From positions 1 to 37,493 of the forward strand of contig QHRA01000204.1 of the NCBI GenBank assembly GCA_003221295.1: a stretch of 37,493 nucleotides of DNA. Direction: 5' to 3'. The stretch is from Verrucomicrobiota bacterium. GTDB lineage: Bacteria > Verrucomicrobiota > Verrucomicrobiia > Chthoniobacterales > UBA10450. The position numbers were made by a program, and so were the translations under genes. Below are positions 7,607-37,020 of this stretch, piece after piece (positions within the stretch are counted from its first letter, which is position 1; each line of letters begins with the position of its first letter). A model generated the notes under the pieces. The model was not told the DNA's origin and searched no databases. It saw only the letters and a program-made list of their open reading frames with translations.

Positions 7607-10492
7607 TCACCACGGTGGATGAAATCCGAAGTCGTTCTTCAATTTCCCCCAAAGCCAATCAACGAACGACTCTTTCCTGATTGAGCCTGCGTTGGCGGCA
7701 GCGAGCGCTTCCGCTTTTTCCACGCTGCCGTTTAAGCAGTAAAGGTAGGTAAGCAGGAACGTGTCGTTGAGACTAAACACGGCGCGGTCTTTCTCGCTCT
7801 CCAGCAGGCGAATTGCTCCCTCGATATCCCGGCGCGCCAGCGCTCCCGCAATTAAGTCTGGCATGGTTTCGAGCGGAGGCGTTTGCGACTCCTTCGCCAC
7901 TCGCTCGGCAATGGCGAGCCGAAATCCATCGCTCCCCAGCACCTCCAACACTGGCATTCGCAAATGGGAGTGGCGCAGGTAAAGATCCAGTTCGGCCAGT
8001 TTGTTGCTTCCAATTGTTTCCGAGAGATATCGCGTCTGGCGGACAATAAAGAATGATTCCAGCGACTTGTTCAGCGTCTCAGGCCAAATCGCGCTAATTA
8101 AGGGAGATCGAAGAAAACGTTGAACCGCTGAGGGCGCCTCGAGGTATATCAAGGCAAAGCGGTGATTCGCTGCGTCATCCCAAGGCTCATCCGTCAGCCG
8201 CTTGGGATAGATGTCGGTCAAGGGCGCGACGCCCTGTGTGATCCGATCGATCTCTTCGCCGTCCATCACGAAAAGCGCGCCCAATTGTTGAGGAACCTCA
8301 ACGCCGATTCCTCTCAAATCTGCGCCAGTATCCGGATTGCTCCATAACTGCCGAAGTTCCTCTTCCTCCACTTTACGCCCCGGACCCTTGATGCCCATCA
8401 TGATCCATTCTTGATCGCCGCTCGCCCAGAGAGACGCGTTTGCGAATACATTATGAAACGCACGTAGGATTGCTTTCGCTTCTTCGACTTTCAGCTGGTT
8501 AATCGGCAGCCAAAAGGTGGCAATTCCGCCTTGCTTCAAGCGACTGTTCATAAGCGAAAAAAATTCCTCCGTGTAGAGATTGACCGCCCCCGCTACTTTC
8601 GGCGGGGGCGGTTCTCCAGAAATGATGTCGTACTGCCGCGGACTTGCTTGAAGGAAGAAGCGGCCATCCTGAATGAAGGTAGTCACCCGAGGATCGCGCA
8701 GCGGGTTCGAGTAATTGATACCCGAATAGAAATCAGCGAGCTGGAGCACTTCTTTCGAAATTTCCACGACATCCATTCTTTTAACGTGCAACCCGCGAAG
8801 AAACGCGTCGGCGGTTACGCCACACCCATAGCAGATCAAGAGCACGTCTTCTGATTCGGGACGGAAAGCCAGCGGGAGATAGGCAAACAATCTCATGTAG
8901 CGCTGATTGCGCGGATTTGTGGCCGACATGGAAAATGCATTCGTCAAAAGCCGGTAGTAGTACGGTTCGCCAAAAAGATCGCGCCGCAGCAGTTGCAATG
9001 TGTCGGAGGCGCCCTCCACCTTTTTCACGACATGTGCGAGCAACCGGCCCTGGTCGTCCGTTTCGTAAGGACGGCTCGCATGTGCGAAATGCATCTCAGC
9101 GCGATGGTGCGGAAAGATTGCGAAAAAGAGAATCAGCGCTGCACAGAGTCCAGTGGTGACCAAGCCGATTGGTCGCCGAAGCGACCAAGTTGAACGTTCA
9201 CACACCAGGATGGCGAGCAGAGCGTAGCCCGCAGCACATAAAATCAGGCTCCATTGGTAGCCGATACTCGGCAACAACAGGAAACTGGCGAGCAGCGGAC
9301 CAGCAGCCGCGCCGGTCGTATTAAACAACGTGGTAATCCCTGTGCTGTTCATACGGTCTTCGACGCTGGCTTGAACACCTGCAACGATCGATGGAAACAA
9401 AATCCCCGACAGAAACGCGACTGGGAACATTAAGGCGATGGAGAGGAACCCAATCTGCCGCCAGGAGACGTCGAATACTCCTGCGCGCGTTTGAACCACT
9501 TCCCCTGGAAAGAACAAATATGAAGAAAGCGTCGCTATCGCGGCCAGCAGCAGCAGGACTGGAAGCAATTGATTCAGTCGCGCCGAGCGGCGGTGAATCG
9601 CGCCAGCCACAATGCTGCCCAGCCCGATCCCAGCCAGGACAACCGCGAGCATAACCGCGAAAGCGGTTGAAGACGAAGGAACATACAATCGCAAAAATCG
9701 AAACCAAACCACCTCAAGGCAAAGAACGATGGCGCCCGTCCCGAAGCTCACCAAAAGCAGACGCCAAGGCGGCCGATAGCTGACATCCAAGCGCAGCGGC
9801 ACTGCTCGCTCCGGAATCAACGCGGCGGTATCGCCATCACGTTTGGATACCAACAATGCGATGGCGGCGGCGATGCAACTCGCCAAACCCGCGGCCAAGC
9901 CCGTGCCGCGAAGTCCAAACGCCTCAATAAAATAAGCTTCACCAACGACCGCTCCTGCTACCGCGCCTAACGTGTTCGATCCATAAAGAAAACCGATCGC
10001 TCGCCCGAAATTTGCGCGCCGCAAAATCGGATCTTCCACCAATACCGGCAGTGTCAGGCCCATCGCCGTTGTCGGTATCAACAGAATAAGGAATGACAGG
10101 ACAAAACGCAATCCAATGAGCGTCGGCTGATAATTCCACAGCATTTGCCAAACGGGCCGCATCAACTCGCCCAGAAGCGGAAGGCCGAAGACAATTGTGC
10201 AACCAAAGAAGGCCACGGCCAGCTCCAGTACCGCGTAAAGATGCAACGGCCGCCACCGCCGAAATCTCGACGATGCTGCGATGGCATTGCCCAACGCCAG
10301 ACCCGCCATAAAGCTGGAAAGAATCAATGCAGCGGCCCAAACCGAATTTCCAACGCTTAAACCGCTCAGTCGGAGCCACAACGTCTCGAAAATGAGTGAG
10401 CCGATTCCCGACAGAAAGAGAATACCTGCTAAAATCGCAACGCGCACCGTCGCATATAAATGCGGCGGTCGGTGCAGACGACCATCTAACAT
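7607..10492 (-). CDS. Fused membrane protein / spermidine-synthase-like domain protein
   Basis: 961 residues. Residues 1-480 hold about twelve to fourteen hydrophobic segments in two similar halves (SLIFETLWLRLSG, GRAIGFLYGSNTLGAV, then VVWFRFLRLYVPS), resembling the MFS-like part of MFS/spermidine synthase fusions. A Rossmann domain follows: LLICYGCGVTADAF near 554, VVEISKEV, DGRFFLQ near 605, YDIISGEPPPP at about 620-630, then NLYTEEFF. Where spermidine synthases have an Asp in YD-x-I-x-x-D this protein has SGEPPPP, so aminopropyl transfer is doubtful. The last 250 residues are helical, ending in TPR-like segments. Function unknown. A broken paralogue lies at 14233-15600. Confidence 0.85.
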   Translation of the reverse strand: MLDGRLHRPPHLYATVRVAILAGILFLSGIGSLIFETLWLRLSGLSVGNSVWAAALILSSFMAGLALGNAIAASSRFRRWRPLHLYAVLELAVAFFGCTIVFGLPLLGELMRPVWQMLWNYQPTLIGLRFVLSFLILLIPTTAMGLTLPVLVEDPILRRANFGRAIGFLYGSNTLGAVAGAVVGEAYFIEAFGLRGTGLAAGLASCIAAAIALLVSKRDGDTAALIPERAVPLRLDVSYRPPWRLLLVSFGTGAIVLCLEVVWFRFLRLYVPSSSTAFAVMLAVVLAGIGLGSIVAGAIHRRSARLNQLLPVLLLLAAIATLSSYLFFPGEVVQTRAGVFDVSWRQIGFLSIALMFPVAFLSGILFPSIVAGVQASVEDRMNSTGITTLFNTTGAAAGPLLASFLLLPSIGYQWSLILCAAGYALLAILVCERSTWSLRRPIGLVTTGLCAALILFFAIFPHHRAEMHFAHASRPYETDDQGRLLAHVVKKVEGASDTLQLLRRDLFGEPYYYRLLTNAFSMSATNPRNQRYMRLFAYLPLAFRPESEDVLLICYGCGVTADAFLRGLHVKRMDVVEISKEVLQLADFYSGINYSNPLRDPRVTTFIQDGRFFLQASPRQYDIISGEPPPPKVAGAVNLYTEEFFSLMNSRLKQGGIATFWLPINQLKVEEAKAILRAFHNVFANASLWASGDQEWIMMGIKGPGRKVEEEELRQLWSNPDTGADLRGIGVEVPQQLGALFVMDGEEIDRITQGVAPLTDIYPKRLTDEPWDDAANHRFALIYLEAPSAVQRFLRSPLISAIWPETLNKSLESFFIVRQTRYLSETIGSNKLAELDLYLRHSHLRMPVLEVLGSDGFRLAIAERVAKESQTPPLETMPDLIAGALARRDIEGAIRLLESEKDRAVFSLNDTFLLTYLYCLNGSVEKAEALAAANAGSIRKESFVDWLWGKLKNDFGFHPPW

Positions 10493-14232: not shown

Positions 14233-15600
14233 GTGCGCGTTGCCCTTGTCTCGCTCATTCTTTTTCTCTCCGGATGACGGCCCCTAGCGTGTTAAAACCA
14301 TAGAAGGCGGTGATGACGCGAGCGAATTGCAGCCATTGTCCGAGCAGGGAAGTCCAAATACCAGCGTCTGGACGCGACGTACAAACGCATGAAGCGGAAC
14401 CAGATTACTCGCGATCCGCGTCTCAAGCATCTCGATTTGGTCGATATTTCGAAGGAAGTTTTCGATCTCGCCGGTTCATACTCCGGCATCGAATACTCAA
14501 ATCCGCTGCGCGATCCTCGCGTCACCACGTTTGTCCAGGACGGCCGCTTCTTCCTCCAAGCCAGCCCGGATCGCTACGACATTATCACCGGTGAACCGCC
14601 ACCGTTGAAGGTAGCCGGCACGGTCAATCTCTACACACAACAGTTTTTCGAACTCATGCACGACCGCCTCAAGGATGGTGGTATTGCCACGTTTTGGTTG
14701 CCCATCTCCCAACTGACGACAGACGAAACGAAAGCAATCCTGCGCGCCTTTCACAATGTCTTCCCGAGTGCGTCGGTTTGGGCGACGTGCGATTTGGAAT
14801 GGATTATGATGGGAAGCAAAGGTCCATTTCAACAGCCGGATACAGCAGTTGGCTCGCTCATTCTGGAGCGAAGGGAAGACGCGCTCAGACTTTGGCCGGA
14901 TCGGTATTGAGTCGCCCGAACAAATCTCCGGCTTATTTGTGATGGATAGCGAAGAAATCATTCGGATCACGGAAGGCGTCGAGCCGTTGAGCGATTTTTA
15001 TCCCAAACGTTTGACCGACACACATCCCGACCTGAAAGCCGCATACCAGTTTGGCCGCAATTATTTCGACAGCTCCGCGGCGCTTCGTCGTTTTCTTTCC
15101 TCCTCTTTTATCAAAGAAACCTGGCCTCAGGAATGGCGAAAGTCCCTCGATCTTTTCTTTCTTGTTCGCGAAACGTGATTTATCTCGGAGATGTCGGGCA
15201 GCAACTGGTTGGCCGATCTCGATCTTTATCTACGCCACACCCGGCTGCGAACGCCGGTTTTGGCTGTTCAGAATAGCGATGAGTTTCGTCTCACCTTCGC
15301 TGAGAACTTCGCGGCGCGGTCGGGTTCCGTGCCGCCAGAAGCATCGCCTGATCTGATAGCAGGGCGCTGGCCCGACGCGAATCTCCCGCAGCTATTCAAC
15401 TACTCAAGGCGGAGAAGGACCGCGGCTTCTCAAATATCAATGACTTCTTCCTGCTCCTCTACCTCTACTGTTTGAATGGAAGCGTCGAAAAAGCGGAGGC
15501 GCTTGCGCCTGCGCAAGCAAGCTCCATCCAAAAAGATTGGTTTGTTGATTGGCTCTGGGGCGAACTGCAAGCCCAGTTCGGATTTCACCCGCCAGGCTGA
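14233..15600 (+). pseudogene. Rearranged, frameshifted copy of the MFS/spermidine-synthase-like fusion gene
   Basis: A broken paralogue of the 7607-10492 gene. Plus-strand 14233-14274 encodes VRVALVSLILFLSG then a stop, matching VRVAILAGILFLSG near the N-terminus of the intact protein. The next ~125 bp are inverted: minus-strand frames read VIWFRFMRLYVAS (intact: VVWFRFLRLYVPS) and FYGFNTLGAV (intact: FLYGSNTLGAV), in the opposite order. From about 14418 the plus strand resumes with LVDISKEVF and SNPLRDPRVTTF and follows the C-terminal half closely. Disabling changes: a frameshift near 14850-14880, TGA at 15176-15178 where the intact gene has Arg, and a frameshift near 15370-15390. The last frame ends FGFHPPG at 15600, like FGFHPPW in the intact protein. 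Confidence 0.88.
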
Positions 15601-29799: not shown

Positions 29800-30777
29800 T
29801 TAACGTACCCAAGCCCGCTTCGGCGGCGGGGCAGGAAACGCGTCCGGCGCTACCTCATGCGCAGTGCGGAAATGAACTTTTCCGAGTTGGGAAAGCATTT
29901 GCGGCCCATGCTTTTCGACGATCGTGGCCGCGGTGCTTTTGATTTCACCTGAGACGCCGCGGCCAAGCCTCACCCCCAACTCCTTTCCCTTTCGCTCCAG
30001 CCAATCGATAAACGCTTCACGCGCCAAGATCGATGCTGCCGCGACCGCGATATCAGTTTCCGCGCGCGGCCGCTGCTCGATCCGAATTTTCCGGCCATGG
30101 CGCAACAGTGCATTTTCGATCACCCGCACATCGGCAAATTTATCGGAGAGTGATCTCGGGCAGTCCGGCTTCCGCGCCAGCAGATTCTCGATGACCCGGG
30201 CGTGTCCCCAGCCGAGCAGACTGTTGAGATTGCCGAATTTCTTATAGAGCTCATTGTAACGCGCGGGCCCGATTGCAACCACCTCGGTTCCCTCGCGCGC
30301 GATCCGCCGGATTTCTTTTGCCAACGCATGAATTCTTGCGTCCGATCCGATCCGCTTACTGTCCTGCACCCCAAGATCGAGCATTTGGCGTGCAGTATTG
30401 CGATCGACAAAGACACCCGCGATCACCAGCGGCCCGAAAAAATCGCCTTTCCCACTTTCGTCCACACCAAAGTGTGGTTCGAACATTTCCGGCGAATGCA
30501 CTTCTTCGTAGCCGAGACGGGCTTCGCCAAAAATGTCCGGTTCGAGCACGAACTTGACGAAATCCTCGACCCCGCGCCCTTGCACTAAAATCTTTGGCCC
30601 TTTCTCATAAACGGCCACGCTTAGCTTTTCCTTTTGCGCAAAAAAAATCGTGTGGGGCTTCGGCGCGAAGGTGAATCCACGCTCGCCCAGAAGTGCGCGA
30701 AGCTTTTCCGCCTGTTCAGAATTGAGCGGATGGGTGTAAGAGTTCACAAAGAGTTCTGGGTTTGAATACACTGTCAT
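29800..30777 (-). CDS. rnhC: Ribonuclease HIII
   Basis: Removes RNA from RNA-DNA hybrids. 325 residues from the ATG at 30777. The N-terminal TBP-like substrate-binding domain spans about 10-100 (LNSEQAEKLRALLGERGF), and the catalytic domain begins at FGVDESGKGDFFGPLVIAGV with the Asp-Glu pair. Later acidic residues lie in LGVQDSKRIG and ETDIAVAAASILARE. The N-terminal domain and the GKG context favour HIII over HII. The start is uncertain: the frame opens with TTG at 30813, ATG 30777 lies inside the dispersed palindromic repeat, and GTG 30747 (VNSYTHPL) just outside it fits the usual family N-terminus best. The frame overlaps mutY head to head. Confidence 0.92.
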   Translation of the reverse strand: MTVYSNPELFVNSYTHPLNSEQAEKLRALLGERGFTFAPKPHTIFFAQKEKLSVAVYEKGPKILVQGRGVEDFVKFVLEPDIFGEARLGYEEVHSPEMFEPHFGVDESGKGDFFGPLVIAGVFVDRNTARQMLDLGVQDSKRIGSDARIHALAKEIRRIAREGTEVVAIGPARYNELYKKFGNLNSLLGWGHARVIENLLARKPDCPRSLSDKFADVRVIENALLRHGRKIRIEQRPRAETDIAVAAASILAREAFIDWLERKGKELGVRLGRGVSGEIKSTAATIVEKHGPQMLSQLGKVHFRTAHEVAPDAFPAPPPKRAWVR

Positions 30778-31811
30778 CCCGAGCGAAGTCGAGGGATCCC
30801 GTCGCGCCAGCAAAAGGTAGTTCCACGGGATCCCTCGACTTGGCTCGGGATGACGGACGACCGTTTCGCCACACTCTAAATCGCTGGTTTTTGCGTAACA
30901 AACGCGATCTCCCCTGGCGCCAGAGCCGCGACCCCTATGACATCCTCGTTTCCGAAATCATGCTCCAGCAAACCCAGGCCGCCACTGTTGTCCCTTACTA
31001 TAATAGGTGGCTGCGCCGCTTCCCCACTATTCGCTCGCTTGCCGCTACGACTGAATCAGACGTTCTGCACGCCTGGCAGGGCTTGGGCTATTATGCTCGA
31101 GCCCGCAATCTCCACCGCTGCGCCAAAACGATCGTCGAGAATTTTGGCGGAAGACTTCCGAATGATCCCGGTAAGTTGAAATCGCTACCGGGTATCGGCC
31201 TTTACACTGCGAATGCCATCGCGGTTTTCGCTCTCGACAAATCCCTGCCCATCGTCGAAGCCAACACCGCTCGCGTTCTCTCCCGCCTTTTCAATATTCG
31301 CGCGCCAATCGATTCCACCTCCGGCCGACGAAAATTGTGGGAACTTTCGGCAAAGCTCGTTCCCCAAAAAAGCGCGCGCGATTTCCAAAACGCGATGATG
31401 GATCTCGGCGCCCTCATTTGCACCGCGCGCAATCCGCGCTGCCAAATTTGTCCGGTGAAAAAGTTTTGTCGCGCGCGTGATCCAGCGTCGCTTCCGCGAA
31501 AAAAAAGACGCGCCGCAATTGTTCCGCTCACTGAATTACATGGCTTGTCCATTATGGCCGGCGCGGTGCTGCTCGAGCGATGCGGCCAGCGCTGGCGGGG
31601 TATGTGGATGCTGCCAAAAGTTCCCGCGCCGCGCTCCGCGCCGATTCACACCACGCGCTTTCCATTCACACATCATCGGGTCACCCTCCAGGTCTTTCGC
31701 AGCAAAGCAGCCCGGCCCGCATCCCACCAACGCTGGTTTCCCATTCGCCGCTTGAACAAGATTCCCATTCCCTCGCCCCACCGCCGCACCCTCACGGCTC
31801 TTCTAGCTTGA
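30762..31811 (+). CDS. mutY: A/G-specific adenine glycosylase, MutY family
   Basis: Removes adenine mispaired with 8-oxoguanine. 349 residues from TTG 30762; TTG 30840 is an alternative start 26 codons later. The first 32 or so residues (SSRAKSRDP..., SLDLARDDG) are encoded by the palindromic repeat at 30772-30854. The recognised enzyme begins at RDLPWRQSRDPYDILVSEIM, which carries the catalytic Glu, followed by LQQTQ. The helix-hairpin-helix is LPGIGLYTANAIA. The iron-sulphur ligands C-x6-C-x2-C-x5-C are present (CTARNPRCQICPVKKFC). The usual catalytic Asp position (PILDGN in E. coli) reads PIVEAN, with Glu at about 166. The C-terminal 8-oxoG recognition domain is shorter than usual but retains GAVLLERCGQRWRGMWMLPK. 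Confidence 0.9.
   Translation: MNTLSSRAKSRDPVAPAKGSSTGSLDLARDDGRPFRHTLNRWFLRNKRDLPWRQSRDPYDILVSEIMLQQTQAATVVPYYNRWLRRFPTIRSLAATTESDVLHAWQGLGYYARARNLHRCAKTIVENFGGRLPNDPGKLKSLPGIGLYTANAIAVFALDKSLPIVEANTARVLSRLFNIRAPIDSTSGRRKLWELSAKLVPQKSARDFQNAMMDLGALICTARNPRCQICPVKKFCRARDPASLPRKKRRAAIVPLTELHGLSIMAGAVLLERCGQRWRGMWMLPKVPAPRSAPIHTTRFPFTHHRVTLQVFRSKAARPASHQRWFPIRRLNKIPIPSPHRRTLTALLA
30772..30854. repeat. Dispersed palindromic repeat, copy B, spanning the 5' ends of rnhC and mutY
   Basis: Begins TGTCATCCCGAGCGAAGTCG and continues through AGGGATCCCG; it ends in the complementary order with GGCTCGGGATGAC. Arms of about 30 bp flank a short variable centre. Same family as copies at 3465-3538 and 36330-36414. 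It lies where two divergent genes meet and provides coding sequence and candidate start codons on both strands. Confidence 0.88.
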
Positions 31812-36329: not shown

Positions 36330-36414
36330 GTCATCCCGAGCGAATGTCGAGGGATCCCGAGGAAGTTACCTTTAAGATTTCGCTTCGGGATCCCTCGACT
36401 TCGCTCGGGATGAC
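36330..36414. repeat. Dispersed palindromic repeat, copy C, between gmk and coaC
   Basis: Starts GTCATCCCGAGCGAATGTCG and proceeds through AGGGATCCCG; the other arm, CGGGATCCCTCGACTTCGCT followed by CGGGATGAC, is its complement over about 30 bp with one extra base in the left arm. It lies 13 bases after the gmk stop and could act as a terminator or mRNA-stabilising hairpin. Confidence 0.88.
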
Positions 36415-36432: not shown

Positions 36433-37020
36433 ATGGCAGCCAATCCAAAATCGAAAACCAGGAATCAAAAATCGATTGTACTTGGCGTGACCGGTTCGAT
36501 CGCCGCCTACAAATCAGCCGAGCTGGCCAGTTTGCTGGTGAAACAAAACCACAATGTTTTTGTCGTGATGACAAATGACGCAACCGAATTCATCACCCCG
36601 TTGACGTTCCAAACGCTTTCGAAAAATCCGGTGATGACAAGTTTCTTCGACGAGAAAGAAAATTGGCGGCCTGGTCATATCGAGCTCGCAGATAACGCCG
36701 ATTTGCTTTTGATTGCACCCGCAACTGCAAACGTCATTGCGGAACTGGCGCACGGTCTCGCCAGTCATCCCCTCACCGCCATTGCGCTGGCCACGCGCGC
36801 GCCCATTCTGATCGCGCCGGCGATGAACGGAAAAATGTGGGAGAACGCTCTGACCCAGGAGAACGTGGAGAAATTGAAATCGCGCGGGACGGAATTCATC
36901 GGTCCGGAAGCAGGCATGCTCGCCTGCGGTTACGAAGGCCTCGGCCGTCTTTGGAAAGTGGAGGACATCGCTTTCCGCGCCGAATTTCTCCTGCACCGGC
37001 ACGATCGATTGATCGCGTGA
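36433..37020 (+). CDS. coaC: Phosphopantothenoylcysteine decarboxylase (stand-alone CoaC)
   Basis: Makes 4'-phosphopantetheine in coenzyme A synthesis. 195 residues, an FMN-dependent HFCD-family flavoprotein: [17 protein letters not shown], the catalytic His at about 82 in [20 protein letters not shown], then [10 protein letters not shown], the substrate clamp PAMNGKMW and the active Cys at about 165 in [12 protein letters not shown]. The first 14 residues ([13 protein letters not shown]) are low-complexity and look derived from an AT-rich repeat next to the palindrome. In most bacteria this domain is fused to CoaB; here the stop TGA overlaps the GTG start of a separate coaB (GTGA). Confidence 0.94.

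Follow-up and report, generated by a model that had tools for sequence, protein, structure and literature searches.

The window analysed here is a stretch of 37,493 nucleotides, which was examined together with its own metagenome-assembled genome (3 Mb); the near relatives with named records belong to the Chthoniobacterales (Verrucomicrobiota). All sequences used are metagenome assemblies, and compared loci are designated by L-numbers. The window contains the divergently oriented genes rnhC and mutY, with a palindromic repeat, F1, in the interval between them (Table 1). The identity of the first gene product was supported by a match to the equivalog profile TIGR00716 (215.5 bits; cut-off 161.2). 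The second matched TIGR01084 (292.6 bits; cut-off 286.5), PF00730, and PF10576, and has kept the HhH-GPD core and the Fe-S motif.

Table 1. Features of the rnhC–mutY region and the second F1 copy in the window.
Feature	Position	Strand	Basis and remarks
rnhC (RNase HIII), 315 residues	29800..30747	-	TIGR00716; start GTG 30747-30745
Stretch between rnhC start and F1	30748..30772	.	25 bp
Candidate mutY start TTG upstream of F1	30762..30764	+	Shared with L168; equivalent TTG in L107
F1 palindrome, two CGTC-REP-like units in inverted orientation	30773..30854	.	82 bp; arms, dispersed copies, hairpin
F1 left arm GTCATCCCGAGCGAAGTCGAGGGATCCCGT	30773..30802	+	30 nt
F1 right arm	30825..30854	-	30 nt; TTC to TTG relative to family consensus
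Candidate mutY start TTG in F1 right arm	30840..30842	+	Private to the window genome; TTT in L168 and L107
mutY conserved core (F-R-x-x-L-x-x-W-F ... RDLPWR) to stop	30864..31811	+	Profile, alignment of relatives
Second F1 copy (copy A)	36330..36414	-	18 bp before CoaBC-like gene start at 36433

The original prediction of a dispersed palindromic repeat exactly between the two genes was borne out by the 82-bp inverted repeat and its many copies. The arms of F1 are 97% complementary and separated by a 22-nt spacer. Its palindrome score is 50, compared with best scores of 24–34 when the full 37-kb window was shuffled five times, and the RNA hairpin predicted from it has a free energy of about -64 kcal/mol. 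The outer ends bear the tags GTCAT (left) and ATGAC (right). Since the complement of the tag is ATGAC, a full F1 copy has an outward ATG at both ends. Among 25 strictly defined full copies, GTCAT was kept on the left in 21 and ATGAC on the right in 21. The stem variants covary between lineages (ATCCC/GGGAT, ATTCC/GGAAT, ATTTC/GAAAT, and ACCCC/GGGGT).

At least about 40 dispersed F1 copies are present in the genome to which the window belongs. An F1 query against this genome produced 80 matches, with both strands of a palindrome counted separately; arm hits with no more than three mismatches numbered 164, versus one for a reversed control pattern. F1 was found in 36 of 58 relatives, 35 of these 36 belonging to the same taxonomic family, and, outside this family, occurs patchily in the phylum, in 12 of 288 genomes. 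The copies showed no sign of a preference for divergent intervals: 13 were located in divergent, 49 in tandem, and 19 in convergent intervals, the background being 42, 165, and 48, respectively, in stretches chosen for holding copies. The only Rfam matches of the repeat, those of microRNAs to a long hairpin, stayed below threshold and were taken as chance, and the repeat sequence or its peptides were not found in any paper in a literature search. The left arm of F1 in L107 (G009:C25) contains an insert with GCCAGTCCGGCTCG, which is also present in an F1 copy of the window genome (L010, upstream of position 1501); this common insert suggests conversion between copies or a shared variant.

F1 resembles, as an inverted pair, the CGTC-tagged REP superfamily (Di Nocera et al., 2013; PMC3733652). 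Common to both are a GTC tag followed by AT at the stem start, arms arranged as inverted pairs, and dispersal; a search for the Y1_Tnp family made no dedicated transposase of F1 evident. The window copy begins with TGTC, in agreement with the [C/T]GTC tag, and F1 agrees with these often dimeric, inverted REPs in its dispersal as inverted pairs. The inner stem of the F1 arm, however, folds into 5 + 2 bp with mismatches and a loop of 4, as compared to 8–9 bp starting with AT and a loop of 4–5 in CGTC-tagged REPs. Verrucomicrobia are absent from the five phyla for which CGTC repeats were listed (PMC3733652). We regard F1 as selfish, REP-like dispersed DNA.

GTAG REP/RAYT systems have in common with the window genome the short dispersed palindromes and the presence of RAYT-like (Y1_Tnp) genes. 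Y1_Tnp was the sole transposase family searched, and seven such genes (L030–L036) were revealed. One F1 copy is located about 100 bp from one of them. None of the seven loci has F1 as its own flanking repeat, and mobilisation of F1 by these RAYTs was rejected. The assignment of F1 to the RAYT-mobilised GTAG REPs was also rejected: F1 has neither a GTAG end nor RAYT flanking, and the RAYT-like genes of this genome carry other repeats. Several of these genes lie between inverted repeats of a kind of their own, unrelated to F1. As for MITE features, F1 has inverted ends, and visual inspection of 26 copies showed no obvious target duplication.

Palindromes that enter protein-coding frames, N-termini included, are known from Rickettsia, where two of the palindromic elements, RPE-4 and RPE-6, are CGTC repeats (PMC3733652). 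These elements differ from F1 in host bacteria and sequence and are inserted inside many ORFs, whereas F1 lies at the start of one gene, in a divergent interval. REPs have also been reported in genes for DNA replication and repair, including uvrA, recBCD, dnaE2, and that for DNA polymerase I, and two Xanthomonas species carry different REPs at about the same recB site (PMC3733652). The window shares with these cases a REP within a DNA-repair gene; it differs in that the main text of that paper does not mention mutY, nor does the paper describe palindromes being exchanged along with the starts of the two neighbouring genes. The occurrence of REPs in repair genes is known already, while recurrent swapping at the rnhC–mutY interval was not found in the searched literature, nor was any paper treating mutY and rnhC together.

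F1 had been predicted to have taken over the 5' ends of both genes. For rnhC, this did not hold. The start GTG at 30747 is 26 nt outside F1, and the codon preceding NSYTHP is ATG, GTG, or TTG in all 41 loci of one Chthoniobacterales family (window included) in which rnhC and mutY are less than 500 bp apart, with or without F1. The predicted TTG (30813) and ATG (30777) do exist in the rnhC frame inside F1 but are, judging from this conservation, mechanical ORF extensions. L108 has 1 nt less between the rnhC start codon and the repeat, which puts the ATG of the repeat out of frame. On the basis of the conserved start-codon position and this indel, an rnhC start inside F1 was rejected for the window. 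In some relatives with another palindrome type (F2, see below), the rnhC start is a TTG directly at the palindrome edge; a palindrome may supply the rnhC start there, but not in the window.

For mutY, the predicted takeover stood. Its frame runs through the repeat, and the longest ORFs of rnhC and mutY overlap by 52 nt, as had been noted. Only 9 nt, i.e. the three non-start codons GGA CGA CCG, separate the end of F1 from the conserved MutY core. Translation must therefore begin within the palindrome (TTG 30840) or just before it (TTG 30762), and either TTG is a candidate. Both had been placed at or inside the repeat; this is correct for TTG 30840, an in-frame codon that stems from the TTC-to-TTG difference from the F1 family consensus, while the in-frame TTG 30762 lies 11 nt outside. 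A start at the latter codon would give MutY about 34 extra residues, mostly encoded by the repeat. In two genus-mates with the same copy, L107 and L168 (the latter with an interval 97% identical to that of the window), the sole in-frame ATG/GTG/TTG is the TTG upstream of the repeat. A conserved non-repeat N-terminus was found in the relatives for RnhC but not for MutY, whose first residues are not conserved. Replacement of the native intergenic region, another part of the prediction, is apparent on the mutY side and less clear on the rnhC side.

The dN/dS values of mutY relative to the genus-mates L168, L107, L108, and L109 are about 0.27–0.37, indicating purifying selection. Because of this, and since the Fe-S and HhH motifs are kept, mutY is very probably translated, possibly at a low level given the strength of the hairpin predicted in its transcript. 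One alternative is that the repeat is 5'-UTR only and that mutY translation begins beyond it, at a rare or internal codon, the N-terminal takeover being an ORF artefact. Many REPs at ORF N-termini may indeed be extragenic, with translation starting downstream (Di Nocera et al., 2013). For mutY we regard this as improbable: the next in-frame TTG, which reads TTA in L107, falls within the conserved first helix, and a start there would delete some of the core sequence alignable to solved MutY structures. PDB structures of MutY align from residues just before the conserved core.

Palindromes of other relatives plausibly supply the mutY start. In L119 and L124, the terminal ATG of the REP is located 6 codons before the MutY core, and in five of six loci with the F3 palindrome (see below) a GTG at the palindrome edge is located 7 codons before it. 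MutY N-termini as annotated in these genomes may derive from repeats or be misplaced. A more far-reaching proposal, in which starts or a shared promoter come from the insertion and the expression of RNase HIII and MutY is thereby coupled, appears very unlikely for the window. The outward ATG codons at the F1 ends and a weak promoter-like match agree with it. This single match, however, is on the plus strand at 30743–30772, outside F1, and directed at mutY only; neither a shared promoter nor linked expression is supported. No promoter-like site was detected within the repeat, its mutY-facing ATG is out of frame in the window, and the conserved rnhC start is outside it.

In about 37 of the 41 loci, the interval is occupied by one of three unrelated palindrome types. 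Assignment by motif and by eye, with some loci holding degenerate palindromes, gave 24 loci with F2, 7 with F1, 6 with F3, and 4 with none or a degenerate remnant only. F2 has the motif (AACGTCC)n ... (GGACGTT)n and F3 the motif CCACAGATTAACACAGATG...; very few other copies of F3, a palindrome of putative mobility, occur elsewhere. L112, L114, and L141 are palindrome-free, with intervals of 46–69 bp, and a half copy persists in L108. Outside the family, most intervals are without a strong palindrome. A fourth, unrelated type (GATTTCTGATTTTCG ... AAATCCAAAATCC) is present in the same interval of L154 and L155 (Chthoniobacter, outside the family).

Strong palindromes (score of 32 or more, within 200 bp upstream of the gene) were detected in the genomes of this family upstream of rnhC (12/28) and mutY (14/29), compared with dgt (1/27) and trpB (0/19). 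In the gene-call control on the same loci, they were present in 11 of 28 rnhC–mutY intervals versus 1 of 23 divergent, 9 of 111 tandem, and 1 of 34 convergent intervals. Against these controls, two single genes and one gene-call analysis, the rnhC–mutY interval appears as a palindrome hot spot in this family.

The palindrome labels require 12 changes on the RnhC tree (at least 4 for F1) and 13 on the MutY tree (at least 3 for F1; L148 was too short and was left out); these are not insertion counts, as exchange can carry palindromes between lineages. An exchange of the whole rnhC or mutY gene was rejected as an explanation for the swaps: the main F1 swaps are placed alike on both trees.

The clearest pair is L118 (F2) and L119 (variant F1b). 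In a BLAST comparison, their identity is 98.2% as far as a point 55 bp inside rnhC and 96.0% from 36 bp inside mutY onwards, with nothing aligned between. Over the first 60 columns, identity is 0.58 in rnhC and 0.67 in mutY, versus 0.92–1.0 in the segments beyond. A single block of about 215 bp, comprising the palindrome and the first ~50 bp of both genes, thus sets the two apart and looks like the product of a cassette exchange. L296 has the same palindrome as L119, and the flanks of L118 are 92–98% identical to those of L119 and L296. The L118 block resembles L135 and L147 from another group, and the stretch AGCAACGCGCGAAGCTTTGTTGCCTG is identical to L135; no exact donor was found among the compared loci. 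A k-mer assembly chimera is an unlikely source of the block because the native and foreign sequences have few identical bases at the left boundary.

In close relatives differing in palindrome type, the first ~50–60 bp of both genes usually differ too. Block replacement is sharp in L118/L119 only; the pairs window/L109 and L147/L148 are consistent with it but noisier. Pairs with a full copy of variant F1a in common (window/L107 and window/L168) have no 5' identity drop, while the drop is present in window/L109 and window/L108. L108 consists of an F1a left arm joined to an L109-like right side. In L148, F1b lies between F2-type remnants and looks like a true insertion.

Taken together, these sequence comparisons make it probable that F1 is a selfish REP-like palindrome which has displaced the mutY start, in an interval where palindromes have been replaced repeatedly, in at least one case as a short block that includes the starts of both genes. 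Rare insertions, such as that in L148, would bring palindromes into the interval, and short cassettes would then be exchanged between species through recombination within the conserved 5' ends of the coding regions. MutY would tolerate the replacement owing to its non-conserved first residues and the outward ATG codons of REP ends. Breaks at the hairpin perhaps provoke the exchange; palindromes are described as double-strand-break hotspots from bacteria to humans in PMC4245961. That such breaks are repaired with DNA of related species, with the 5' ends of two repair genes acting as a swappable cassette and unrelated palindrome families competing for one site, is a possibility that we put forward tentatively.

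The main rival is a hairpin kept by selection, as a 5'-UTR attenuator, an insulator, or a cruciform between divergent genes; any palindrome would serve, hence the interchange of unrelated families. The high occupancy relative to the controls and the presence of unrelated families in the same place agree with such a sequence-independent function. So does the better match between the two arms of the same F2 interval than across species (23.7 vs 18.7; own arm better in 71% of comparisons), although palindrome-correcting mutation or conversion would be expected to produce the same pattern. The existence of palindrome-free species and the survival of half copies speak against it, and we consider it unlikely. 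Similarly doubtful is a neutral, permissive site, where one old ancestral palindrome persisted while decaying and new insertions occurred now and then, with neither cassette exchange nor function. It is compatible with the wide distribution of F2 in the family and the variable first residues of MutY. However, sisters carry unrelated palindromes, the gene ends change along with them, and a block as sharp as that of L118/L119 is not expected from simple decay.

The displacement of the mutY start by a selfish palindrome, which we prefer, belongs to a natural series: unrelated palindromes at one orthologous site in dozens of species, including a near-identical before-and-after pair. This series allows the entry, exit, and inter-genome movement of REP-like palindromes to be tested, along with the way a repair gene copes when its start codon and first residues are replaced again and again. 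Should recombination provoked by the hairpin be the cause, palindrome fragility would be tied to gene exchange in wild bacteria.

Several other features were observed. Identity between mutY of the window and those of L168, L108, and L109 falls from ~0.8–0.97 to ~0.5 after roughly 700 bp, and the C-terminal part therefore evolves much faster. At the position of the catalytic Asp of MutY, which lies in the motif VDGN of the solved Bacillus-type enzyme, all family members in which the motif could be located have Glu (VEAN/IEAN), and the outgroup members have Asp. The top palindrome score in the window belongs to an inverted repeat at 2148–2355, with 53-nt arms that are 79% complementary and 102 nt apart. 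Finally, the regions 8382–8773 and 14434–14825 share an inverted similarity of 392 nt (73%) and perhaps represent two related genes in opposite orientation.
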